Part shown: positions 15,764 to 50,379 of the stretch, piece by piece | How the letters are laid out: every line of letters begins with the position of its first letter | How positions within the stretch are numbered: position 1 is the first letter of the stretch | Source of the DNA: Rubripirellula lacrimiformis | Lineage (GTDB): Bacteria; Planctomycetota; Planctomycetia; Pirellulales; Pirellulaceae | Assembly: GCF_007741535.1 (NCBI RefSeq) | Contig: NZ_CP036525.1 | Location: 6,138,001-6,202,000, forward strand | Length of the DNA: 64,000 bases | Direction: 5' to 3' | Made by a program: the position numbers and the translations under genes | The notes under the pieces: generated by a model | Seen by the model: only the letters and a program-made list of their open reading frames with translations | The model's database searches: none | Told to the model about the DNA's origin: nothing

Positions 15764-18703
15764 ATGAACATTGCCCTCCGGCGCAGTCAAGCGCGTCGTC
15801 TGAACGTTGAATCCCTCGAGTCTCGGCGTTTACTTGCCGGAAACCTATCGCTGGGCGAAGTTTCATTAGATGAATCGGGGCAGGTATCTGCCGCAGTAGC
15901 TATCAATGTTCCAGCATTGCCGATATCCGCACTATCAATGTCGATGGGCGAGCAGATGTCGCACAGTGGTGTGACGGTAACCCCCACAGAAGTCATCACC
16001 CATCACGATCGTATTCCACGATTCGCGGCGAATCCCACATTCATCGCGGTAACGGACGGCGACTGGTCGGATCCACCAACATGGCAAAACAGCGAAATAC
16101 CAGGTCCGGGCGCCATTGTTTCGGTGCCGCAGGGACGAACGGTCATTTACGATGTTGACAGTGATGTGCGGATCGACGCGATCGAGATCAGTGGTCATCT
16201 TAAATTCGCGACCGACACGCCGACGTCGTTATGGCTGAACGAGATCATGGTGATGCCCCACGGCAGCCTGACCATCGGTACGGCCGGTCAACCAATCCAA
16301 GGCAATGTCAAAGCGGAGATCGTCTTCACCGACACGCCGCAAGCCGACGGTCATCATTTCAAGACAGGCACGGTAGAAAACCCGGGCATTGATCCCTCTC
16401 AGTGGGGAAACGGGCTGATTGTTCTTGGAGGGCTAGACATCTACGGTGCCGAAAAAACAGCACATGTCCGAAGTCAAGCCGATCTTGAAAGTGGAGCTAC
16501 GAAAATTGACTTTCAAACGCTTCCAGCAAACTGGACGCTCGGCGATACGCTTTTGCTTCCGGAAACCTCTCAAACGCCCATTACCAAGAAAGGTATTCAG
16601 ATTAACGAATCGGAAACCGTTCTGATCGCCTCGCTTGAGAATGGCCAAGTGCAAACGGAAACGGCATTAAAGTATGACCATTACGGTATTACAGAGAATA
16701 GCTTTGACATCAACCGTTTTGCGCATGTTGCCAACTTGAGTCGTAACGTTCGCATTCGCAGTGAGAATCCGGAAGGCGTGCGCGGCCATGTAGCGGCAAC
16801 TGCCGGAGCGATCGTCCATTTGGAAAACGCGGAATTTGTCGGATTAGGTCGGACAAGTTCAGATGAGTTCGTTGACGATACGGTGACAGAAACGTCCGGG
16901 AATCTGGTCCAAATTGGTAGAAACGTCGCTGGTCGCTATTCGGTTCACCTTCATCACTTAAGTCATCCTGCAATGGTTGATGGAATCGTCGTCAGGGACG
17001 CTAGGAAATGGGGCATCGTTGTCCATGAAACAAACGACAGCACCATCCGAGACAGCATTGTTTACGATGTCGACGGCGCAGGAATCGTAACGGAGTCAGG
17101 CAATGAAACCGGAAACCGTTTTGAAAACAATCTGGTGATACAGGTCAATGGTGGACATCAAACTGACGATCCTCGCGCCGGCGCAGTTGAGGCGAAGGAT
17201 GCGGTCGGAAAACGGTTTATTGAAATTGGAAATGACGGTTCCGGCTTCTGGCTTCGCGCTTCCGAAGGCGAGTTCATTGGCAACACCGTATACGATGCCG
17301 TTGGTTACGGGTTTAACTTCAACGGCTATTATCGAACGCCGGATATATCAAAAGTCCATCGCCAACTGGACGTTTTCAAAGATAACGAGGCGGTCTCAAG
17401 CAAGGGAGGTCTTTGGTTCTCTTGGTCTCAAGGCCAGTTTGATATTGATAACTACGCTCCGAATCCCGTTCGCAATTTCCTCGCTTGGCATGTTTCGCAT
17501 GACGGGCTGAAAACTTACCACGACGCGAATTTAGGCGTTGACGGCTTCGTCGTGATTGGCAATCCCTCGGTTTCTAGCCGTAACGAAGGTAGTCCATTCA
17601 CTTTTGATACCCGAGCCAATTCGGGGATTTGGATGGGAAACGTAACGTATGAAAATTACAACCACGTTGGGAAGAACGTTAAGATCGAGGGGATGAATTT
17701 TGGGATTGTCGCTCCGATCAACGCAGGCGACCAAGGAATGCAGTTGCACGATGTGACACTTCGCAATTATGTCAATATAGCTTTTCCTCGGGAGGCAGAC
17801 CCCGATGCCATCTTCTTGAGCGATGTCTCATTCTTACCGTCGCACGTAAGTAAGATCGCTGCTTCAATGCCCGAGCAGACAGCGAATGTTTGGGATGAAG
17901 ATACCGGGATATTGATCGCTGGAACGATGAGTAGCGATCTTCCGCCCGGTGTAGTACCGCGGTTGCCTGTCGAGTGGAATCAAACCAGCGATGGCAGGTT
18001 GATCATTCGCTCGGGTGAATCATCCGACTCAATTGCGGTGAGAGTTGTCGACGACCTATTTTTGTTCACGATCAACTCGCAGGAATTCCAGATACCGGTC
18101 GAAGGGATTCATCAATTTACCTTTTTCGGCGGCGATGGCGATGATCTGTTTGTCAACGACACAAATGTGCGTTTAGTTGCGTTAGGCGGTGCAGGACGGG
18201 ACACAATCCTGGGCGGCGGCGGCGATGATTCGATTCTCGGTGGCGACGACGACGATTTCCTTGATGGACGCGGTGGCGATGACGTCCTACAAGGAAACGA
18301 CGGGAATGACGTCATCTTCGGTGGTGATGGTGCTGATCGAATTCGTGCTGGTGCTGGTGACGACTGGATTGATGGAGGCGGTGGTTCGGACCCCGTCCTG
18401 GCAGGGGGAGAAGGAAACGACTTCATTAGCGGGGGATTGGGAGATGATGTCTTGGTCGGTGGGAACGGAAATGACCGTCTTGACGGCGGCGATGGGGACG
18501 ATCTACTTGCAGGGCAAAGTGGTCATGACATTTTGTTTGGTCGACTAGGTGACGACATACTTTCCGGCGGCGACGATGACGACTGGCTCGATGGCGGCGA
18601 AGGCATTGATAAATTGCGAGGCGGCCTGGGCGAAGATATCATCCTGTTCGATCAAATCGATTCAGTTATCGACGGCGAGGATCTTCGTCCACAACTTTTT
18701 TAA
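15764..18703 (+). CDS. Secreted G8-domain, beta-helix and RTX-repeat protein with planctomycete N-terminal motif
   Basis: A 979-residue exported protein. The N-terminus carries VESLESRRLLAG (about residues 15-26), the conserved motif of planctomycete extracellular proteins. A G8-like domain follows (about 85-190, with DGDWSDPPTWQN and GRTVIYDVDSDVRIDAIEI), then a right-handed beta-helix region (about 280-640), then about a dozen hemolysin-type calcium-binding nonapeptides of GGDGDD.L.G type (about 805-960). It ends near residue 979 without an anchor. G8/beta-helix proteins often bind or cut polysaccharides, so it may act on the polymer. It follows wecB, and its last 38 bp overlap the 3' end of the convergent GT4 gene. 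Confidence 0.85.
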   Translation: MNIALRRSQARRLNVESLESRRLLAGNLSLGEVSLDESGQVSAAVAINVPALPISALSMSMGEQMSHSGVTVTPTEVITHHDRIPRFAANPTFIAVTDGDWSDPPTWQNSEIPGPGAIVSVPQGRTVIYDVDSDVRIDAIEISGHLKFATDTPTSLWLNEIMVMPHGSLTIGTAGQPIQGNVKAEIVFTDTPQADGHHFKTGTVENPGIDPSQWGNGLIVLGGLDIYGAEKTAHVRSQADLESGATKIDFQTLPANWTLGDTLLLPETSQTPITKKGIQINESETVLIASLENGQVQTETALKYDHYGITENSFDINRFAHVANLSRNVRIRSENPEGVRGHVAATAGAIVHLENAEFVGLGRTSSDEFVDDTVTETSGNLVQIGRNVAGRYSVHLHHLSHPAMVDGIVVRDARKWGIVVHETNDSTIRDSIVYDVDGAGIVTESGNETGNRFENNLVIQVNGGHQTDDPRAGAVEAKDAVGKRFIEIGNDGSGFWLRASEGEFIGNTVYDAVGYGFNFNGYYRTPDISKVHRQLDVFKDNEAVSSKGGLWFSWSQGQFDIDNYAPNPVRNFLAWHVSHDGLKTYHDANLGVDGFVVIGNPSVSSRNEGSPFTFDTRANSGIWMGNVTYENYNHVGKNVKIEGMNFGIVAPINAGDQGMQLHDVTLRNYVNIAFPREADPDAIFLSDVSFLPSHVSKIAASMPEQTANVWDEDTGILIAGTMSSDLPPGVVPRLPVEWNQTSDGRLIIRSGESSDSIAVRVVDDLFLFTINSQEFQIPVEGIHQFTFFGGDGDDLFVNDTNVRLVALGGAGRDTILGGGGDDSILGGDDDDFLDGRGGDDVLQGNDGNDVIFGGDGADRIRAGAGDDWIDGGGGSDPVLAGGEGNDFISGGLGDDVLVGGNGNDRLDGGDGDDLLAGQSGHDILFGRLGDDILSGGDDDDWLDGGEGIDKLRGGLGEDIILFDQIDSVIDGEDLRPQLF

Positions 18704-29247: not shown

Positions 29248-30417
29248 TCAGCCATTGCGAGAACTCATGAACTGCAAGACGCTATTAGCGACCCCGGACC
29301 AAGTGCGACCATCCATGCGACTGGAAATTTGGCTGGCGTCCCAGTCTTTTTCAAGGGATTTTTCTAACGCGACTGCAAAGGCCTGGTGGTCACCCGGTGA
29401 AACAACGTAACCTTCAATTGCGTCTCGGATCTCTTGCGGATTGCTGCCGACGGACGTGGCGACAACCGGAGTTCCCGTCGCCAACGCCTCCAGTACCGCA
29501 TTGCAACAGCCTTCGCGATGGCTTGCCAGTGCGAACACATTAGCGGCTTGCAGCCAGACTGCAACTTCGTCCGGCGGTCTCGCTCCGATCTTGAAGACCA
29601 GATCTTCACACCCTAACGACGCGATGAGCAGGTCGATTTGCTGCACGGCGCTGACATCACTGGCGGATCCGATCAGCACCAGTCGTGCTCCCAAGTCTCG
29701 CGGCAACGCGGCGAACGCTTTTAAAAGCACCTCGTGCCCTTTGACCGCCTTGAGATTCGCGACGCAAACGATCAGAGGTCCATCAAGCGGTTGGTCGAGT
29801 TCCATTCTCGCTGCCTCACGATCGCCTGGATGAAAGAGGTCCCCGTCAATCCCGTTTGCAATGACGGCAATGTTGCTCTTGGGTACGCCGGCATCGACAG
29901 CAGCGTTACGCAGTGATTCGCTCACCGCGATAACGCCAGCGCAATGCGATAGCGCTTCGACTAGCTGAGGCTTGACGCTGGGGATCCGAAAACGGTCGAT
30001 TTCGAGTCCACGCATGGTGATGAAGCAAGGCAAGCCGCGCTGCTTTGCTGCCAGGTAGCAACCAACGCCCTCGGGGTATCCGAAATGAGCGTCAATGACC
30101 GCGTTGGACGAAACCGAATCGTCCATTCCATCTAGCCATTTCTCAACACAGCGTTGCAGCCAACGCCCATCGATCCGTTTGGCAACGCCGGGCAAGTAGA
30201 ACATGTCTTCAAAATCCACCGGCAGCTGGGAACCAGTGAGTGGTTGATCAGCGAAGCGAGGGCGAATGAAGGGGAACCAAGGTTGCGGGCAGAGCGCCCG
30301 CACGTTGGCGAGTTCAGCCATCTTTTCCAGCCGCCGATGGACGAATAGCCCGAGCAGAGGATCTCGGCGACTCGGTAGATTGGTGCAAACGCTGAGAATA
30401 TTCGACGGCGGATTCAT
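29248..30417 (-). CDS. Glycosyltransferase family 4
   Basis: 389 residues from ATG at 30417 (MNPPSNILSVCTNLPS). It has an N-terminal GT-B domain ending in HFGYPEGVGCYLAAKQRG and FITMRGLEID, then a C-terminal domain with GDLFHPGDREAARMEL and SHREGCCNAVLEALATGTPVV, where the E-x7-E pair is plain. The start overlaps the TGA of the upstream SGNH-like gene by one base (TGATG). It is a distinct subfamily from the two YHHRT-type enzymes nearby. Confidence 0.9.
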   Translation of the reverse strand: MNPPSNILSVCTNLPSRRDPLLGLFVHRRLEKMAELANVRALCPQPWFPFIRPRFADQPLTGSQLPVDFEDMFYLPGVAKRIDGRWLQRCVEKWLDGMDDSVSSNAVIDAHFGYPEGVGCYLAAKQRGLPCFITMRGLEIDRFRIPSVKPQLVEALSHCAGVIAVSESLRNAAVDAGVPKSNIAVIANGIDGDLFHPGDREAARMELDQPLDGPLIVCVANLKAVKGHEVLLKAFAALPRDLGARLVLIGSASDVSAVQQIDLLIASLGCEDLVFKIGARPPDEVAVWLQAANVFALASHREGCCNAVLEALATGTPVVATSVGSNPQEIRDAIEGYVVSPGDHQAFAVALEKSLEKDWDASQISSRMDGRTWSGVANSVLQFMSSRNG

Positions 30418-31718
30418 CAGTTCTCCACCGGCATATCTCGTTTGGCCGAGCTGCGACGCCCCACGCCTTTCGACGGTTGATAGTCGGCCCGCGCTTTTCG
30501 CTGCAAATTTAATTGCTGCTGAATGTTCGTTGGCGTAATCGCAGTTCCCCACTCACCGCGGTCTCCTTGGCTCGCAGCGTCCTGGTTCAGCATTCTCACG
30601 AACATTTGATCACCCAGCGCTTGCCGGTAATGACCCGATTCCCAGTACCATTTCATGACGGTTTTCTTGTCACCGGCCGCAGGTGGCGTTTCGGTTGAAT
30701 ATGGGTTGAACGAGGCAAAATCCCAGAGCTGAACTCCAGGCCTATCGCAGATTTCGCTGAGTTCGACTTTCCACTCTTCAAAATCACCCCAATGCCCACT
30801 CGTTTCAAAAATTCGTAAGACATCGGCGTGGTAGGGATGGATGAACACGAGGATCCGGATGTTTCGGCTGGTTGCCAGTGACAGTAAGTCTTCGATCGCG
30901 GTTAGTTCGTCGGACTGTTCCAATGGCGGCGCTACGCGATCAGCGCACTTCTTAGCATATTCCTCATTTTTTTGCCGGAACAATGCGGCCTGACCCTCAT
31001 TGTGAATCAGTGTCCGAAAGGCCGCACCGGAATTGAAACCCTGCGTGGAAATATCGGCGGCATTGGAGTTACCTTGGGCCAGGACCGTCAACAACGAGTC
31101 TTGGAGTGCAGAGAGTGAAAGCGCGGCAGCGCATATGTCGTTAGCTCTTTGCGATGTCCGATTCCAATCCCATCCGCTCCCGTCGTCAACCGAGCTGAGT
31201 CGGTTGTAAACCGACGAATCGGTTCCGCTGTCTCCCGAGCCATCGCCGTCTTCACTCGATTGAAGTCCTGGTGCTCTCAAAAAATTCAGGAAATCAACAC
31301 CCAACACAACTGTCGTTGGCGAAGACGTGGACAGCGCATGCTCAAAATATCGCAGCGCGAGTTCCGACCCCGAACCTGGTTGGCCAAGGTTATAGGCGGG
31401 CCGAAATTGTGGGGGAATCGCATCACTTCGAGGATCCAGGCCAATATCGACGCGTGAATTGCCGAGGAACAAGGTTTCGTAATCATCACGCTCAACCCCG
31501 TAGGCTTTGGCCATCCGGACCTTCCGGATCGCTTGTGGTTTCAACACACTCCAACCCACGATCCGGGACGTCCCAAAGCGTAGGTAGGGATCGATCCACA
31601 CGTCGATGGCAGCGACGCAGACCAGCATGCCAATAACGCAGGCGAACATGCGACGGGTGTATTGACTGAACTGCGTCGCAGTTTCGAACTCGTCGCCATG
31701 TTCGGAGTTTAGATGCAT
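30417..31718 (-). CDS. SGNH-like membrane-anchored protein, likely partner of the MBOAT acyltransferase
   Basis: 433 residues with one N-terminal membrane helix (FACVIGMLVCVAAIDVWI, about 25-42). The periplasmic part has LFLGNSRVDIGLDP (about 83-96), a block I-like segment with N-S in place of G-D-S, YNLGQPGSGSELA (block II-like), and YWESGHYRQALGDQM (about 355-370), with an x-x-H ending as in SGNH hydrolases. AlgX/AlgJ-type proteins with this pattern work with MBOAT proteins in glycan O-acetylation. The MBOAT gene lies 25 bp upstream, which supports that role. The altered block I leaves catalysis uncertain. Confidence 0.72.
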   Translation of the reverse strand: MHLNSEHGDEFETATQFSQYTRRMFACVIGMLVCVAAIDVWIDPYLRFGTSRIVGWSVLKPQAIRKVRMAKAYGVERDDYETLFLGNSRVDIGLDPRSDAIPPQFRPAYNLGQPGSGSELALRYFEHALSTSSPTTVVLGVDFLNFLRAPGLQSSEDGDGSGDSGTDSSVYNRLSSVDDGSGWDWNRTSQRANDICAAALSLSALQDSLLTVLAQGNSNAADISTQGFNSGAAFRTLIHNEGQAALFRQKNEEYAKKCADRVAPPLEQSDELTAIEDLLSLATSRNIRILVFIHPYHADVLRIFETSGHWGDFEEWKVELSEICDRPGVQLWDFASFNPYSTETPPAAGDKKTVMKWYWESGHYRQALGDQMFVRMLNQDAASQGDRGEWGTAITPTNIQQQLNLQRKARADYQPSKGVGRRSSAKRDMPVEN

Positions 31719-31743: not shown

Positions 31744-33297
31744 TTAGAACTGAAAGTAAAGAAATTCCGAAACTTCGGCCAGTGACAGAATTCCCGCCCC
31801 AGCGATAACGCTGATCACTACGGACCAAAAAGCTGTGGGTCGCCACCGTAGTGGCAGTGATACACCAAAACCGGCCTCCGGTAACGCTTTCGTCTTGGAC
31901 GCATTGGAATACTCCCAGGCCGGCTCGAGCCGGCTCAGAAACTCTTGGGTCGTCGGAAGCAGCCAAACGATTGCCGCCAAAGCGACGATCCAGAGCACTG
32001 CAAACACGAACTGCGTCCCGCTGCTACTGTCCAATCCAATCCCATAGTCGGCGATCGTTGCTCCCGTCAGTCCGATGCGCGCGGCGATGGCATCGGGGAC
32101 CGAAATGCCGTTTCTTCCTGCCATTGCCGACACGATGCGGTTGGCGGATTCCAGTGACGAAGCTCGGAAATAGGCCCAGGCGAAATGAACTGCGATGTAG
32201 GTGACCAGACATGCCGCGAAGCGATAAACGAGCACACGCTTCCACGCTCCAAACGACGATGTTGCTTGGCTCCACCGCTGCTGGATTACCAAGTACATCC
32301 CATGCAGCAGCCCCCACAAGACAAAGGTCCAACCCGCACCATGCCAGAGTCCGCCGAGCAACATCGTGATCAATAGATTGCGGTATCGAGCGGCAGCGCC
32401 GTAGCGATTGCCACCCAAAGGGATGTACAAGTAATCTCGCAAAAAACGCGACAACGTGATGTGCCAACGTCGCCAGAAATCACTGATCGTTTCGGCGCGG
32501 TAAGGCGAGAAGAAATTAAGCGGAAGCTTGATGCCGAACATCCGGGCCGCACCGATTGCCATGTCGGAGTAACCCGAGAAATCAAAGTAGATTTGGAATC
32601 CGTACGCCAGCACGCCTGTCCATGCGTGCAAAAACGTCGCCGATTGCCAAGCATCCGGATGATCAAACAGGGCGTTTGCGTACGGAGCTACCCCGTCCGC
32701 AAGCACAGCCTTTTTAAACAGTCCCAACGCGAAAATCGTTGCTCCCACGGACATGTCGCCAGCGGTGCCGCGGGTCGTGGAGCGGAGCTGGGGCATGATC
32801 TCCGCGTGATGGACAATCGGCCCCGCAATCAGTTGCGGAAAAAAACTGACAAACAAGCCGTATTCACCAAGTCCATAGGCCTGGGATTTTCCGGAGTAAC
32901 AATCTGCCAAATATGCGATCTGTTGGAACGTAAAGAACGAGATCGCCAGCGGAAGTGCGACATCAATAAAGCTGGACTCAGCGCCAGTGAGGTGCGTTAT
33001 GTTCTCGACGAAGAAGCCCGCGTACTTGTAGTAACCAATCAAACAAAGATTGGCTGAAACGGCAAGCCATAGCAATGGCTTTGTAGGGCGTAATCGCAGC
33101 CTTTCGCCCATCACATAGTTGAAACCAATCGTGGACAACAGCAGCGGCAGATAGATCGGGTTCCACCAAGCATAGAAGAATAGCGAACACGCCAGCAGCC
33201 AAATGACTCGGTAGCGGTAATTGCCCACCAACAACCGATCGCCCAGCAGAGCGATTGGAAGCAGCAGGAAAATAAATTCATAAGAGTTGAATAACAC
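31744..33297 (-). CDS. MBOAT-family O-acyltransferase (AlgI-like)
   Basis: A 517-residue polytopic membrane protein with about ten or more helices. It carries the MBOAT signature, with the conserved histidine in GGLWHGAGWTFVLWG (about residue 318) and a second histidine in GLLHGMYLV. RRWHITLSRFLRDYLYIPLG (about 266-285) is the typical AlgI loop. It should move an acyl group across the inner membrane onto the polymer or its repeat unit. The start is GTG at 33297; no ATG is near. It lies between the SGNH-like gene and the SGNH-carbamoyltransferase fusion, forming a three-gene decoration module. Confidence 0.92.
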   Translation of the reverse strand: MLFNSYEFIFLLLPIALLGDRLLVGNYRYRVIWLLACSLFFYAWWNPIYLPLLLSTIGFNYVMGERLRLRPTKPLLWLAVSANLCLIGYYKYAGFFVENITHLTGAESSFIDVALPLAISFFTFQQIAYLADCYSGKSQAYGLGEYGLFVSFFPQLIAGPIVHHAEIMPQLRSTTRGTAGDMSVGATIFALGLFKKAVLADGVAPYANALFDHPDAWQSATFLHAWTGVLAYGFQIYFDFSGYSDMAIGAARMFGIKLPLNFFSPYRAETISDFWRRWHITLSRFLRDYLYIPLGGNRYGAAARYRNLLITMLLGGLWHGAGWTFVLWGLLHGMYLVIQQRWSQATSSFGAWKRVLVYRFAACLVTYIAVHFAWAYFRASSLESANRIVSAMAGRNGISVPDAIAARIGLTGATIADYGIGLDSSSGTQFVFAVLWIVALAAIVWLLPTTQEFLSRLEPAWEYSNASKTKALPEAGFGVSLPLRWRPTAFWSVVISVIAGAGILSLAEVSEFLYFQF

Positions 33298-33306
33298 GCT
33301 CTATGC

Positions 33307-36300
33307 TCAAAACATCACGTAGACCGACTCTGAAAGTTCAGCATCCTGATCCTCGGCGAGCGGGTATTTCGCTGCGATCTCCAGCATCTGACGAACAACG
33401 TCGCGAAACTTCGTTGTATCCGATGCGTATCGCCAGCGGTCAGCGATCGCATCAGCCAGGGCCGCGGGATCCAATGGGTCGGCACGGAACGCGGGATCGA
33501 ATTCGAACGAGCGCCCACGTTCCACTGAATCGTCAACGGACTCCCACCGACTGTCGGCCAATCTCTCCTTTCGCTGCGGAATGGTGGGCATGCCCGCACG
33601 TGTTGACTGCTCTACCGCTGGCCAGAAGGCCTTGTCGAACATGCGATCAATTTGCCGGTGCAACGGGTCATCTTTGTTCTCAACCGCAACTGCCATGACA
33701 TCTTCGTTCTCTAATCCCTCGCCTTTCCCCTCGGGCCAGGACGGCTGATCGGCTTTCCGCAAAACAAAATTGCCCAGCGCCAGAACGTCCATTTCCGTCC
33801 GCATGAAACATCGGTATGCGTCGTAAGGAGTGCAGACGATCGGCTCACCACGAACGTTGAACGAGGTGTTGACCAGGATTCCGTAGCCAGTATCCGCCTC
33901 GAACTGCTTGATCAAGTCATAAAACGCAGCGTGGTGTTCCCGTCGCACCGTTTGGATCCGAGCGGAATAGTCAACGTGCGTGACGGCAGGAATGTCCGAA
34001 CGAGCTTGGCGGACAATGGGGAGCAAATCTTCCGCATCCAACGTCGTTGATGGATCCGGCGGCAACCGATGTTCCTCGCGTACTGGCGCCACCAGCAGCA
34101 TGTAGGGGCTCTCGCCATCGAGATCGAAGTAATCAGAAGCTCGTTCCTTCAGGACTGCCGGTGCAAAGGGGCGAAACGATTCGCGGTATTTGATCCTCAG
34201 GTTCAGCGTGGTCTGCATTTCGCGATTTCGGACGTCACCCAGGATCGATCGTGCGCCCAAGGATCGAGGCCCAAACTCCAGACGTCCCGAGAAATGTCCA
34301 ACGACCTTTCCGTCGGCCAGTGCCGACGACAACACTTTCTCACGCTCGCCATCAGCCAACTCCTCGTACGGATAGCCGTGTGTGTCCAGGTATGATTTGA
34401 TCTCGTCCGTGGAAAATCCAGGGCCTAGGTAGGACCCGCCTTGATCGGATAACTCGGAACGCGGTCCACGGGGTTGCCCGAAATACGTGTGCCACGTATC
34501 CAGCGCGACGCCCAAAGCGCAACCCGAATCGCCTGCGGCAGGTTGAATCCAAAGGTCGTCAAAGACCCCCTCCCGCAGTAGCTTTCCATTGGCGACGCAG
34601 TTCAGAGCAACACCCCCGGCGAGGCAGAGGTTTTTCTCACCGGTCAGCTCGCGAGCATGCGAGGCCATCCGTATCACCGCTATCTCTGTAACTTCTTGGA
34701 TCGAACGGGCGATGTCCATTTCACGGCGGGTGATCCGGCTCTCGGGGTCACGTCGGGGTCCGCCGAATAGTTCATCGAACTTATCCGCAGTCGTACTCAC
34801 GTCACGCAGGAACGCGAAGTAGTCCATGTTCAGCGCAACCGAACCGTCGTCCTTGATGTCGACGATATTGTCGAGAATGGTCTGCGTGTAGATGGGCTCG
34901 CCGTAGGGCGCAAGGCCCATCATCTTGTACTCACCTGAATTCACTTTGAAACCCGTGAAGTGCGTAAACGCCGAGTACAGCAATCCAAGTGAATCAGTAA
35001 AATTCATCTCCCGCAGGATTTCCAGATCTGCGCCGCTGCCCTTGCCAATGGACGCTGTGGCCCATTCGCCCACGCCATCAATGGTTAGGATCGCAGCAGA
35101 TTCAAATGGAGACGGGTAGTAGCAGCTCGCGGCATGCGAGCGGTGATGATTGCCTTGCAGGATCAGACCTTCATAGTTCAACGATTCTCGAACGATGCGT
35201 GGGAACTGCAGTTTGTACCGCGCCCAATCGGGAACGATGTGACTCCACATCTTTCGGGAACTCTGGCGGTCCGTCGATGCCAGGCTATGGAGAATACGCT
35301 CGAACGTGAGTGAAGAATCATCGTAAAACGCGACCGCCTTCAAATCCTTGTGAGACACTTGGGCATGTTCAAGGCAGAAATTGATTGCCTGGTTGGGGAA
35401 CCGACGATCGTTCTTGACGCGGCTGAATCGCTCTTCTTCGGCAGCAGCCACAATCTCGCCATCGCGAATGAGCGCCGCAGCGGAGTTATGGTAGAAGGCA
35501 CTGATCCCGAGGATCGCCTCTGAGGACGAGCCAACGTGCACCGCGGGTGTCTTCTCAACTTGCTCAGGTGCCTTCGTCAGAGTCGCAGCCAAGCAGTCCA
35601 ATCGGGGTCGAATGAAGCTAGCCATCTGTTCGGCTACCAATCGGTTTGCATAGGGCGTGAAATGCCCGCCCTGCTCGAAGCTGAGTTTGAGTCGTTCCTC
35701 GTAAGGCAACTTGATCAGGGTGCTGGAAACGTCGCCCACATAGATCGATCCCGATGGATTGGCGATCGATTCGAACAGCGGTTGGTAGATGGGCTCCATC
35801 CCCACGAGATAGAAATCGCGGGTCGGGATCGGAAAGATGAACACCGGCAGCGGTTGAGCCTGATCAATGAACCGTCGAAGTATCGCCGACATCAGCTTCC
35901 AGCCCTTTGTGTCGTCGGACTGAATATCGGGGTAGGGATGGTGTCCCCGCATGCGCTTGAATTCCGTGATCAAACGAGATCCTGCATCGGAAAACAGTGC
36001 TGACTTGCGGACCTGTTTCAGGCCCGGAATCATCGAATAGACATCATGAATCTTCGCGAGAAGATCGTCGTCGCGTTTTCCATTCTGCGCCGTTGCGTCG
36101 TCTTCGACTTCCGCTCGCTCTATCGGCACGGGAACTTGGTGCAATGCCAATTCACCGTTGGACAGTTCGAAATAGGGTTTGGGGACGCGTACTTTTTTTC
36201 CGGTCACGCGGTCCACCGATGGTCGGTGACTGGTTTGAATCCGGTGAAAACTATCAATTTGCACACAGATCACGATGGCATCCGCTTCGATGTCCTTCGC

Positions 36301-36642
36301 GTACGATTCATGAATCAGAGCGTGTTGATCGGTGCCTGAGCCCGAAACACCGAAGTTAAAAACTTCGCAATCGAGCAGCTTGGCAAGCTGGTCGGAATAG
36401 CGGTCGGCGTTGCACACATTATCGCCAGCGGTGTAGGAATCACCGAACATCAGAATTCTGGGTTTATCACCTCTCCGGGTAACAAACTCCTGGTCAGAGC
36501 GGAAACCGGCGGAATTGGTTTTGACAAAATATCCACCTGCTTCGTTACTCAAACGAGCAAACTGATTGGGAACGAAACGGTGTCCGACCCGCTCGTCATG
36601 CTGGATCAACATGCGGTGAGTGGATTGTTTGAGTAGGAACAT
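33307..36642 (-). CDS. SGNH hydrolase - NodU/CmcH-type carbamoyltransferase fusion
   Basis: One 1,111-residue frame with two enzyme parts. Residues about 1-360 form an SGNH/GDSL-like domain: ILMFGDSYTAGDN (block I, about 63-75), FNFGVSGSGTDQH (about 95-107) and EQGGHFTPYANRL with a block V-like histidine (about 325-337). From about 378 the carbamoyltransferase begins with ILGISAFYHNSAAALIRDG, continues with LILQGNHHRSHAAS, LTIDGVGEW and LCLAGGVALNCVANGKL, and carries the C-terminal domain with HFSGRLEFGPRSLGARSILG. Typical NodU/CmcH proteins are about 550-620 residues and lack the SGNH part. It is expected to transfer carbamoyl from carbamoyl phosphate to a hydroxyl on the glycan. No frameshift joins the halves. 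A fused partner on the neighbouring MBOAT module is a striking arrangement. Confidence 0.88.
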   Translation of the reverse strand: MFLLKQSTHRMLIQHDERVGHRFVPNQFARLSNEAGGYFVKTNSAGFRSDQEFVTRRGDKPRILMFGDSYTAGDNVCNADRYSDQLAKLLDCEVFNFGVSGSGTDQHALIHESYAKDIEADAIVICVQIDSFHRIQTSHRPSVDRVTGKKVRVPKPYFELSNGELALHQVPVPIERAEVEDDATAQNGKRDDDLLAKIHDVYSMIPGLKQVRKSALFSDAGSRLITEFKRMRGHHPYPDIQSDDTKGWKLMSAILRRFIDQAQPLPVFIFPIPTRDFYLVGMEPIYQPLFESIANPSGSIYVGDVSSTLIKLPYEERLKLSFEQGGHFTPYANRLVAEQMASFIRPRLDCLAATLTKAPEQVEKTPAVHVGSSSEAILGISAFYHNSAAALIRDGEIVAAAEEERFSRVKNDRRFPNQAINFCLEHAQVSHKDLKAVAFYDDSSLTFERILHSLASTDRQSSRKMWSHIVPDWARYKLQFPRIVRESLNYEGLILQGNHHRSHAASCYYPSPFESAAILTIDGVGEWATASIGKGSGADLEILREMNFTDSLGLLYSAFTHFTGFKVNSGEYKMMGLAPYGEPIYTQTILDNIVDIKDDGSVALNMDYFAFLRDVSTTADKFDELFGGPRRDPESRITRREMDIARSIQEVTEIAVIRMASHARELTGEKNLCLAGGVALNCVANGKLLREGVFDDLWIQPAAGDSGCALGVALDTWHTYFGQPRGPRSELSDQGGSYLGPGFSTDEIKSYLDTHGYPYEELADGEREKVLSSALADGKVVGHFSGRLEFGPRSLGARSILGDVRNREMQTTLNLRIKYRESFRPFAPAVLKERASDYFDLDGESPYMLLVAPVREEHRLPPDPSTTLDAEDLLPIVRQARSDIPAVTHVDYSARIQTVRREHHAAFYDLIKQFEADTGYGILVNTSFNVRGEPIVCTPYDAYRCFMRTEMDVLALGNFVLRKADQPSWPEGKGEGLENEDVMAVAVENKDDPLHRQIDRMFDKAFWPAVEQSTRAGMPTIPQRKERLADSRWESVDDSVERGRSFEFDPAFRADPLDPAALADAIADRWRYASDTTKFRDVVRQMLEIAAKYPLAEDQDAELSESVYVMF

Positions 36643-48363: not shown

Positions 48364-50244
48364 TCATCCCAATGGACTGGCACTGCCACGGCCGTTTCCG
48401 CCCATCGTGGCCTCTTGCCACTGGTGCGTGACGTTGGCCATTGAATTGAATTGGTGGCAATGAAGCATGCGACGCAGACGACGTTCCGTTTTTTCGAGCC
48501 CAACGTAGTGACGGAATCGACTCTTGATGCCCACTTTGGTGATCCGTGGCTGATCGGGGTCGTATTCCCAAGGATGCGTGTAGAACATTGCTGGCCGACC
48601 CTGCGAGCGGACTGAATCGATTGCCGCGCTGGTCATGTGGTATGGGAACAGTCGGAAGTATCCACCGCCGATCGGTACCGATACGCCCTGGACACTGCCG
48701 ATCGAAGGCGGGAACTCTAGAATCGTTCCGTTATCCGTCCGCAGTTTATGAATATGTTTTTGGGCAGCGGGCATCCCGTAGCGGTCGTGGTGCCGAATCG
48801 GGAAAATACTGCTGTCGGACTTGTATCCCAGCTGAGTCAACACGTCCAACGCCCAAGTCGTGTCTTCGACAATGGAAAAGCTTGGGGCGCGGTAGGCTGT
48901 CACCTCGACGCCACAGGCACTCGCGATCGCATCGCGACTCTCGATCAAATCTTCCGCAAACTCATCGGGCGTGATGTTGTAATTCAGGCGGTGCCAGTAG
49001 CCATGGCTGGCGATCTGGTGGCCGGCGGCAGCAATCCGCTTGACCAACGACGGGTAACGATCGGCGACCCAACCGAGCACGAAGAACGTGCCATGCACCT
49101 CGCTTTCTTCCATCAGCTGAAGCAACCGCATCGTATTGGATTCGACTCGACTGGTCAGCCGATCCCAATCTTTCCGCAGGACACGTTTTTCGAAAGCGGT
49201 GACCTGGAAGTAGTCTTCCACGTCAACGGTCAACGCGTTGTCGATCGTCTTCATCGCCTCGCGTGACACGGCGGACACTTCCATGGATTCCGCGGCCGAG
49301 ACCGCTGGTTCGTCTCGATCACCTTCGCGTTTCAGAATCACACGTGCGAAACGATGCATGCGATCAGACCGCTGGCGTAGGGCCCACGGCACCAATCGAC
49401 CATGGTCCATCCGCGATTCGTCCAGCAGGTTCGCATCCAACAATAACCCCCGACGACACAAGCTTAACGTCCGCATCACGGTTTCCCCCTGAATGCCGAA
49501 CATTCGCATGCCCGTGGCCAGGATCAAACGGATGTCGAGCCAAGCATTCGCGTTCTCGATGTAGTAGAGATCGAAGATCAATTTGCGGCGCACATCGTCC
49601 AGCGTTTGATCCGGTTTGAGATTGACTTGAGCCAAGCCTGTCAGCCCAGGCTTGACGCTGTGCCTGTTGTCATAACCGGCGACTTCCCGCGACAGCCTTA
49701 GAACGATTTCGGGGCGTTCGGGCCGCGGCCCCGTCAACGTCATCTCGCCGAGCAGGACATTGACCAACTGAGGCCACTCGTCCATATGAAGCGCACGCAG
49801 CCACTTGCCAACCGGGGTGATCCGATCATCGCCTTCGGCACACCAAACCGCCTTGCCATCCGATTCACTATCCACTCGCATGCTGCGAAATTTGTAGACC
49901 GTAAAGACGCGTCCATTCAGCCCCACACGCTCTTGCTTATACACCGCCGGCCCGGGCGATGTGAAGCGAATCAGTGCATAGATCAGCAACATCCATGGCG
50001 ACAGCACCAGCAAAAGTCCGAGCCCAAGCATTCGCTCGACCGCATACTTGAACCGGAAATAACGAGCACGCTGGTGCGTTTCCCACGGGCTAAACCGCAT
50101 TGCCGGCGGCGAGGAAGTGGCAACAGGACGTCGTCGCCGCCCCCCCCGAGGTGCTCGAAAAAGCGCCGCGGACGGCGACGCGGGGGATGCATGGGGCGAT
50201 GCATCCGATAACTGTTCGGCGTCAATTTTGTGTGCTTGCGACAT
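48364..50244 (-). CDS. Sugar transferase - PEP-CTERM-type polysaccharide deacetylase fusion
   Basis: A 626-residue protein made of two functions normally separate. Residues about 65-280 are a bacterial sugar transferase (polyprenyl-phosphate glycosylphosphotransferase): a membrane stretch, then PGPAVYKQERVGLNGR, FRSMR and MTLTGPRPERPEI. From about 338 it is a NodB-like deacetylase of the exosortase-locus type: LTVDVEDYFQV with the metal aspartate, HGTFFVLGWVADRYP, and HQIASHGYWH with two metal histidines. The C-terminus FNSMANVTHQW matches the DUF3473-like tail. It starts the glycan and later deacetylates it, if both parts work. ATG at 50244 has AGGAAG six bases upstream; the frame from 50322 is rejected. 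A fusion of these two is uncommon. Confidence 0.9.
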   Translation of the reverse strand: MSQAHKIDAEQLSDASPHASPASPSAALFRAPRGGRRRRPVATSSPPAMRFSPWETHQRARYFRFKYAVERMLGLGLLLVLSPWMLLIYALIRFTSPGPAVYKQERVGLNGRVFTVYKFRSMRVDSESDGKAVWCAEGDDRITPVGKWLRALHMDEWPQLVNVLLGEMTLTGPRPERPEIVLRLSREVAGYDNRHSVKPGLTGLAQVNLKPDQTLDDVRRKLIFDLYYIENANAWLDIRLILATGMRMFGIQGETVMRTLSLCRRGLLLDANLLDESRMDHGRLVPWALRQRSDRMHRFARVILKREGDRDEPAVSAAESMEVSAVSREAMKTIDNALTVDVEDYFQVTAFEKRVLRKDWDRLTSRVESNTMRLLQLMEESEVHGTFFVLGWVADRYPSLVKRIAAAGHQIASHGYWHRLNYNITPDEFAEDLIESRDAIASACGVEVTAYRAPSFSIVEDTTWALDVLTQLGYKSDSSIFPIRHHDRYGMPAAQKHIHKLRTDNGTILEFPPSIGSVQGVSVPIGGGYFRLFPYHMTSAAIDSVRSQGRPAMFYTHPWEYDPDQPRITKVGIKSRFRHYVGLEKTERRLRRMLHCHQFNSMANVTHQWQEATMGGNGRGSASPLG

Positions 50245-50379
50245 GGTGCTTCCTGACAATTCAGGGGCTCTTTTGGGGCATCGGCGGGGCGGTGGGGCAC
50301 GGGTGGTTCTGCTGCGATCCACGCAGTCCTGGGGAACGATTCGGGCGGGGCCCCCCAGCGGGGCATCCGAGAAGTGTTC

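Follow-up and report, generated by a model that had tools for sequence, protein, structure and literature searches.

A single-protein fusion of an SGNH-fold domain, a class III O-carbamoyltransferase and a helical third domain with a tyrosine-containing tail in Rubripirellula lacrimiformis

Architecture of the fusion protein

We analysed a 64,000-nucleotide stretch of the Rubripirellula lacrimiformis genome (NZ_CP036525.1, positions 6,138,001 to 6,202,000 of the forward strand; hereafter the window), in which one gene encodes an SGNH-fold domain, a class III O-carbamoyltransferase (CT) and a helical third domain with a C-terminal tail in a single protein (Table 1). The original prediction, made from the sequence alone, had proposed the fusion of the first two parts, and this was borne out by a single unbroken frame of 1,111 residues with an ATG start and zero internal stops. 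No stop was found between the halves, and at least 116 relatives exceed 1,000 aa. The domain names and extents given in that prediction were also right, while the third domain and the tail tyrosine, which are the most informative on mechanism, had been missed.

Both Pfam domains of the CT part scored above their cut-offs (PF02543, 273.5 versus 24 bits; PF16861, 233.4 versus 27 bits), and the score for the NodU equivalog NF041651, which calls for more than 1000 bits, was 136.9 bits. Residues ~382–965 aligned with solved members of the class III CTs (NodU/CmcH, TobZ, GdmN, NovN, VtdB) with a best E-value of 2e-83 and a Foldseek probability of 1.0; those solved enzymes act on small molecules, whereas the fusion adds an SGNH domain before the CT and a tail domain after it. 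The catalytic His385 and the iron ligands His499, His503, Asp522 and Asp705 were invariant in 97 aligned rows and corresponded to H27, H133, H137, D156 and D333 of GdmN, for which the catalytic histidine and four iron ligands have been described (PMC9633730). Carbamoyltransferase activity of the fusion is a well-supported prediction from its sequence.

Since SGNH profile searches of PDB sequences gave weak partial matches only, the N-terminal part was evaluated by fold comparison, which confirmed the predicted SGNH fold and placed CgnD of crocagin biosynthesis (PDB 8a2n; 15% identity) as the best match. In clusters related to that of CgnD, a glycosyltransferase has been reported where the fusion has its CT. 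A homologue search with residues 1–375 (E ≤ 1e-3, candidate lengths set by the whole protein) returned 199 clusters, and 116 of the 120 among the matches listed were longer than 1,000 aa. These 116 fusions were aligned with the query in 117 rows, and 86 shorter relatives, mostly unfused and including some fragments, served for comparison. The canonical block I Ser, block II Gly and block V His are all present in the query: Ser69 was kept in 116 and His327 in all 117 of the aligned fusions, as were Gly98 in 114 and Gly101 in 117. Among the shorter relatives, 84 cover the serine position, and all of them have the serine.

The third domain, which we call CEXT, gave no significant Pfam match (15 members scanned, best E 0.04) and proved homologous to a separate small gene located after the CT elsewhere (hhalign, 98.1%, E 1e-13, 109 columns). 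This small gene mostly encodes 100–130 aa directly after an unfused CT, and its first possible start usually overlaps the CT stop codon. Small proteins and fusions alike end in sequences such as SPFIYVMF, SDFVYAMY and SESVYVMF. A Tyr at the −4 position followed by an aromatic last residue was observed in all 114 proteins longer than 1,060 aa among the matches listed, and the mean column identity was 0.91 for the terminal hexapeptide versus 0.43 for the CEXT body (residues 990–1100).

Table 1. Features of the fusion gene and of the adjoining acylation genes, in window coordinates
Feature	Position	Strand	Residues	Remark
SGNH-CT-tail fusion gene	33307..36642	-	1-1111	1,111 aa
SGNH-fold domain	35593..36615	-	10-350	
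Ser69 codon	36436-36438	-	69	block I
Asp130			130	block III Asn position
Gly325			325	block V Asp position
His327 codon	35662-35664	-	327	block V
Class III O-carbamoyltransferase	33754..35514	-	377-963	
Third domain CEXT	33343..33675	-	990-1100	partly helical
C-terminal hexapeptide SVYVMF	33310..33327	-	1106-1111	proposed carbamoyl shuttle
Tyr1108 codon	33319-33321	-	1108	
MBOAT O-acyltransferase	31744..33297	-		9 bp downstream of fusion
MBOAT shuttle motif FLYFQF	31747-31764	-		C-terminal end
Probable SGNH-like partner of MBOAT	30417..31718	-		GNSR motif read by eye

Fused and unfused relatives across bacteria

Using two SGNH-derived peptide patterns and no CT sequence, we scanned 84,980 species genomes and confirmed 52 loci. 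A CT was fused or nearby in 44 of them, four reached a contig end and four contained no CT. The 44 comprised 14 SGNH-CT fusions, of which one is truncated at a contig edge, 22 loci with a CT directly downstream at a distance of 235 bp or less, four with the CT 1.4–1.5 kb downstream and four with the CT upstream within 1.4 kb. The survey for the same fusion that the original prediction had proposed thus returned fused hosts that belong, going by the titles of their records, to six phyla (Planctomycetota, Acidobacteriota, Verrucomicrobiota, Lentisphaerota, Nitrospirota and Myxococcota), and the unfused hosts include Pseudomonadota, Myxococcota, Gemmatimonadota, Spirochaetota, Thermodesulfobacteriota and Planctomycetota. 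Many of the unfused cassettes follow the gene order SGNH, CT and small protein, which is the domain order of the fusion. In the host genome, a single contig of 8.54 Mb, there were 24 GDSL_2 matches, the fusion gene among them, versus two CTs.

The tail was present in 38 of the 38 testable loci, defined as those with an SGNH domain, a complete CT and downstream sequence, by a pattern that was widened after tails had been seen; six of the 52 loci were untestable, three of which also show the tail, and eight without a CT or SGNH match on the plus strand were left out of the count. In two loci (L056, 10903-13137; L061, 11102-13309), the CT frame extends into a tail (SPFIYAMF) and the SGNH domain is encoded by the preceding gene, so that these loci may represent a stage between the three-gene arrangement and the complete fusion.

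In a CT tree of 59 rows, the 15 fused rows formed a single clade (support 100/100), which joined (90/73) a group of SGNH-paired CTs (94/90). The fused-plus-paired clade of 39 rows was itself supported at 100/100, and CTs of the type accompanied by DUF5989, including the second CT of the host genome, fell outside it. Unlike in the CT tree, the fused group was weakly supported in the SGNH tree (77/37). The trees exclude CT pieces shorter than ~450 aa as well as SGNH pieces shorter than ~220 aa or weaker than E 1e-25.

Several loci differed in detail. A Verrucomicrobia contig carries a tandem pair of full SGNH-CT-tail fusions (L034, 6637-13294). In Candidatus Burkholderia humilis (L064, 10027-12802), the SGNH and CT frames are interrupted and the tail gene, ending in SNFIYAMY, is still open. 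Among the loci with a CT 1.4–1.5 kb downstream, an intervening gene was seen in two, and the two genes have similar starts (L043, 11154-12311; L053, 10992-12272; Trinickia); a gene starting in a similar way lies between two SGNH genes in L038 (8552-9709). The 386-aa protein of L038 was amidohydrolase-like by NCBIfam at scores below the cut-offs, and its gene and several of the small partners gave no significant Pfam match.

Many planctomycete CTs are followed by a 135–138 aa protein, recognised by Pfam as SxtJ in L066 and L122 and unrecognised in L075, and then by DUF5989, which shares the tail ending (for example, APFIYTLF). The order in L122 was CT, SxtJ, DUF5989 and a GDSL protein in which an N-terminal hydrophobic stretch was read by eye. 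Such sets resemble the fusion in having a CT followed by a small protein ending in FIYxxF, with a GDSL protein in L122, but their partners look like membrane proteins and their CTs lie outside the SGNH-paired and fused clade. In the sxt cluster, sxtI has been assigned to carbamoylation, J and K have had no known function and L is a GDSL gene with a proposed decarbamoylation role (PMC2679770); a cluster with a truncated CT is also without the GDSL gene (PMC3037375). In a phylum sample of 59 genomes, DUF5989 was located within 3 kb of a CT in 25 of 34 matches, a count based on 52 of the CT matches, with those on a different contig or at a greater distance excluded. The host genome also encodes another DUF5989 tail protein (L116, 8516-8749; G000:C1:5836518-5836658), which has no CT near it.

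Three generalisations were examined and dropped. That every CT carries a tail failed in a CT-centred sample of 30 planctomycete loci with 1.5 kb flanks, where 11 matched downstream (12 with L115 by eye) and L093 had a tail upstream. DUF5989 does not always accompany a CT, as nine of the 34 matches had none within 3 kb, one of these at a contig edge. Nor do the membrane-type CTs always have an SGNH gene, which was found in 2 of 14 loci, once on the opposite strand, in a search limited to two SGNH queries and one custom profile. Because of these SGNH and tail counts, it is less certain that the CT-SxtJ-DUF5989 sets are a membrane variant of the CT-tail-SGNH system.

A proposed carbamoyl relay and its alternatives

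In MBOAT-SGNH systems, a C-terminal FXYXXF motif described as an acyl shuttle is carried either by PatA itself or by the microprotein DltX; its Tyr receives the acyl group and passes it on to the serine of an SGNH protein (PMC12148441). We scanned the published F-x-Y-x-x-F-COOH pattern over 13,105 six-frame open reading frames of the loci and the window and obtained 49 matches versus 0.18 expected from composition. Nine of these were second copies of a locus, and the 40 distinct matches comprised 35 located in CT loci, three MBOATs, including that of the window, and two chance-like cases. As the scanned loci had been picked for CT or SGNH, the scan shows which proteins carry the motif and not its frequency in genomes. 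Several CEXT genes of the unfused type and several DUF5989 genes match the strict motif, and the fusion itself has the Tyr and the terminal aromatic residue.

We consider it somewhat better than an even bet that the fusion is a self-contained O-carbamoylation machine belonging to the exosortase-type exopolysaccharide locus described below. The CT part would form carbamoyl-AMP from ATP and carbamoyl phosphate, as is a property of its class, and would carbamoylate the phenol of Tyr1108 in the tail and not the final acceptor directly. The tail would then swing to the SGNH domain, where Ser69 would accept the carbamoyl group with His327 as base, and the SGNH domain would transfer it to one of the hydroxyls of a polysaccharide precursor, presumably in the cytosol. 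The logic would be that of the MBOAT-SGNH systems Dlt and Pat, except that a soluble CT would replace the membrane MBOAT and a single chain would unite activator, shuttle and transferase. PatA/PatB and DltB/DltX/DltD likewise combine an SGNH protein with a C-terminal peptide having an invariant Tyr four from the end and a terminal aromatic residue; in the fusion, by contrast, the activator is a soluble CT, the transferred group would be carbamoyl, the parts look cytosolic and are joined in one chain, and position −6 is Ser and not Phe. The AT3-SGNH fusions of the OatA type also hold activator and SGNH transferase in one chain, with an acyl-Tyr intermediate (PMC12148441). We do not claim membership of the fusion in the known shuttle systems, because its tail departs from the strict motif and a CT stands in the place of the MBOAT, the adjoining MBOAT having a tail of its own.

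A number of observations weigh against this relay. The block III Asn of the oxyanion hole is missing in the query, where Asp130-Ser131 is found instead (Asp130 in 114 of 117 fusions), and Gly occupies the block V Asp position in 104 of 117 fusions, the query included; Ser69 may therefore have little activity or none. CgnD, the best match by fold, is a hydrolase that slowly cleaves a leader peptide, and the related CTs GdmN and TobZ use small acceptors without a shuttle. All parts of the fusion look cytosolic, and there would thus be no need for a membrane-crossing shuttle. Position −6 is Ser and not Phe in 107 of the 114 fused proteins among the matches listed, so that SVYVMF of the window protein misses the strict FXYXXF, and AlphaFold leaves the tail unplaced (confidence score pLDDT 50–58). 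Four of the 48 informative SGNH loci (L068, L072, L073 and L074; 29–36% identity) have no CT, and the failed generalisations above, with the tail pattern near only 11 of 30 CTs in the phylum sample, count on the same side.

In the 86 shorter relatives, the block V Asp was present in 81, and the block III position was Glu in 81 with Asn as the next residue in 84; a one-residue shift could therefore restore the Asn there, but not in the Asp-Ser of the query. In a locus tree of 51 rows, the query clade of 11 rows (100/99) shares the loss of the Asp and the acid-Ser pair, and the remaining five fused rows (L031, L034 twice, L035 and L036) retain D-x-H. Precedents for altered SGNH sites are Ser-His dyads and oxyanion holes that lack the block III Asn, that of the transferase PatB1 among them (PMC9487903); a search of that review's main text gave no match to 'carbamoyl'. 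The original prediction had suggested either removal of one group alongside carbamoylation, which the absence of the oxyanion-hole Asn and the triad Asp makes less likely, or an SGNH domain serving as acyl carrier or transferase, the option favoured by the evidence. Carbamoyl-serine esters hydrolyse slowly, as in the carbamates of serine hydrolases, and this would be in keeping with a transferase whose triad is weakened.

Of the other explanations, the one that survives best, although we regard it as unlikely, is that the CT carbamoylates the glycan directly, while the SGNH domain, with little catalytic power, binds the acceptor and the tail serves as a docking or regulatory peptide. It agrees with the substitutions at the Asn and Asp positions, with the complete CT core and with a GdmN structure that holds acceptor and carbamoyl adenylate together, but the near-invariance of Ser and His (116 and 117 of 117) exceeds what a scaffold needs, and the tail Tyr lies in register with a proven acyl-Tyr motif and is 91% conserved despite covalent attachment. 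Less probable still is an SGNH domain acting as an editing esterase (decarbamoylase) that tunes the degree of modification: GDSL proteins are usually hydrolases, and such a role was proposed for the GDSL gene found with a CT in a cyanobacterial cluster, but that proposal rests on homology (PMC2679770), a maker and an eraser fused 1:1 would be futile, the altered active site speaks against hydrolysis and the tail is left unexplained. That the SGNH domain handles another acyl group of the same glycan, such as acetyl, by chemistry unrelated to carbamoylation is very improbable. This reading gains from an MBOAT immediately downstream of the fusion in the window and L037, and close by in L026, but the SGNH-CT link holds in loci where the window MBOAT as query recognised no MBOAT.

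Beyond the fusion itself, we tentatively suggest, at somewhat less than even chances, that CT-SGNH systems add a soluble class to the known tyrosine-shuttle machines for acyl transfer, in which a tail Tyr is charged by the CT and the SGNH protein delivers the carbamoyl group. The charged tail would sit on CEXT, on DUF5989 or fused to the CT, the window protein would be a complete machine and DUF5989 would be a DltX-like carbamoyl carrier. The individual domains are already known and several databases hold the fusion as 'carbamoyltransferase'; in the open-access literature, we found among the matches listed no paper describing an SGNH-CT fusion and none linking CTs to the shuttle motif or DltX, and no mention of DUF5989 in what was searched. 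If true, this reading would extend the tyrosine-shuttle logic, known from the attachment of D-Ala or acetyl to envelope polymers at the membrane, to carbamoyl and to enzymes that are soluble, would account for the SGNH genes of this subfamily adjoining carbamoyltransferases and would give a function to families so far without one (CEXT and DUF5989). Every relay step would be assayable without membranes in one soluble polypeptide.

Surroundings of the fusion gene

The MBOAT gene next to the fusion and its SGNH-like neighbour, whose protein gave no Pfam match, probably constitute a second, shuttle-type acylation system that is separate from the fusion; the pair is found after the fusion in Stieleria (L037) as well. 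The MBOAT was rejected as a fixed partner of the fusion: with the window MBOAT as phmmer query (E 1e-8, within the locus DNA), it was recognised next to the fusion in the window and in L037 and a little farther away in L026, and the other fused loci gave no match.

By their predicted gene content, the surroundings resemble an exopolysaccharide locus of the exosortase type; they include an exosortase, DUF3485, a sugar transferase, several glycosyltransferases, O-antigen-ligase/Wzy-like and flippase-like proteins, methyltransferases, a UDP-sugar dehydrogenase and a UDP-GlcNAc 2-epimerase. Both activities of the fusion may act on the same glycan, as had further been suggested, but no glycosyltransferase was recognised around the unfused cassettes of L038, L040-L043 and L052 with those of the window as queries. 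Elsewhere in the window, positions 48364-50322 (minus strand) encode a 652-aa protein that combines a bacterial sugar transferase (PF02397) with a polysaccharide deacetylase with DUF3473, and positions 15764-18703 (plus strand) encode a predicted extracellular protein of 979 aa with G8, a CEMIP beta-helix and RTX calcium-binding repeats.

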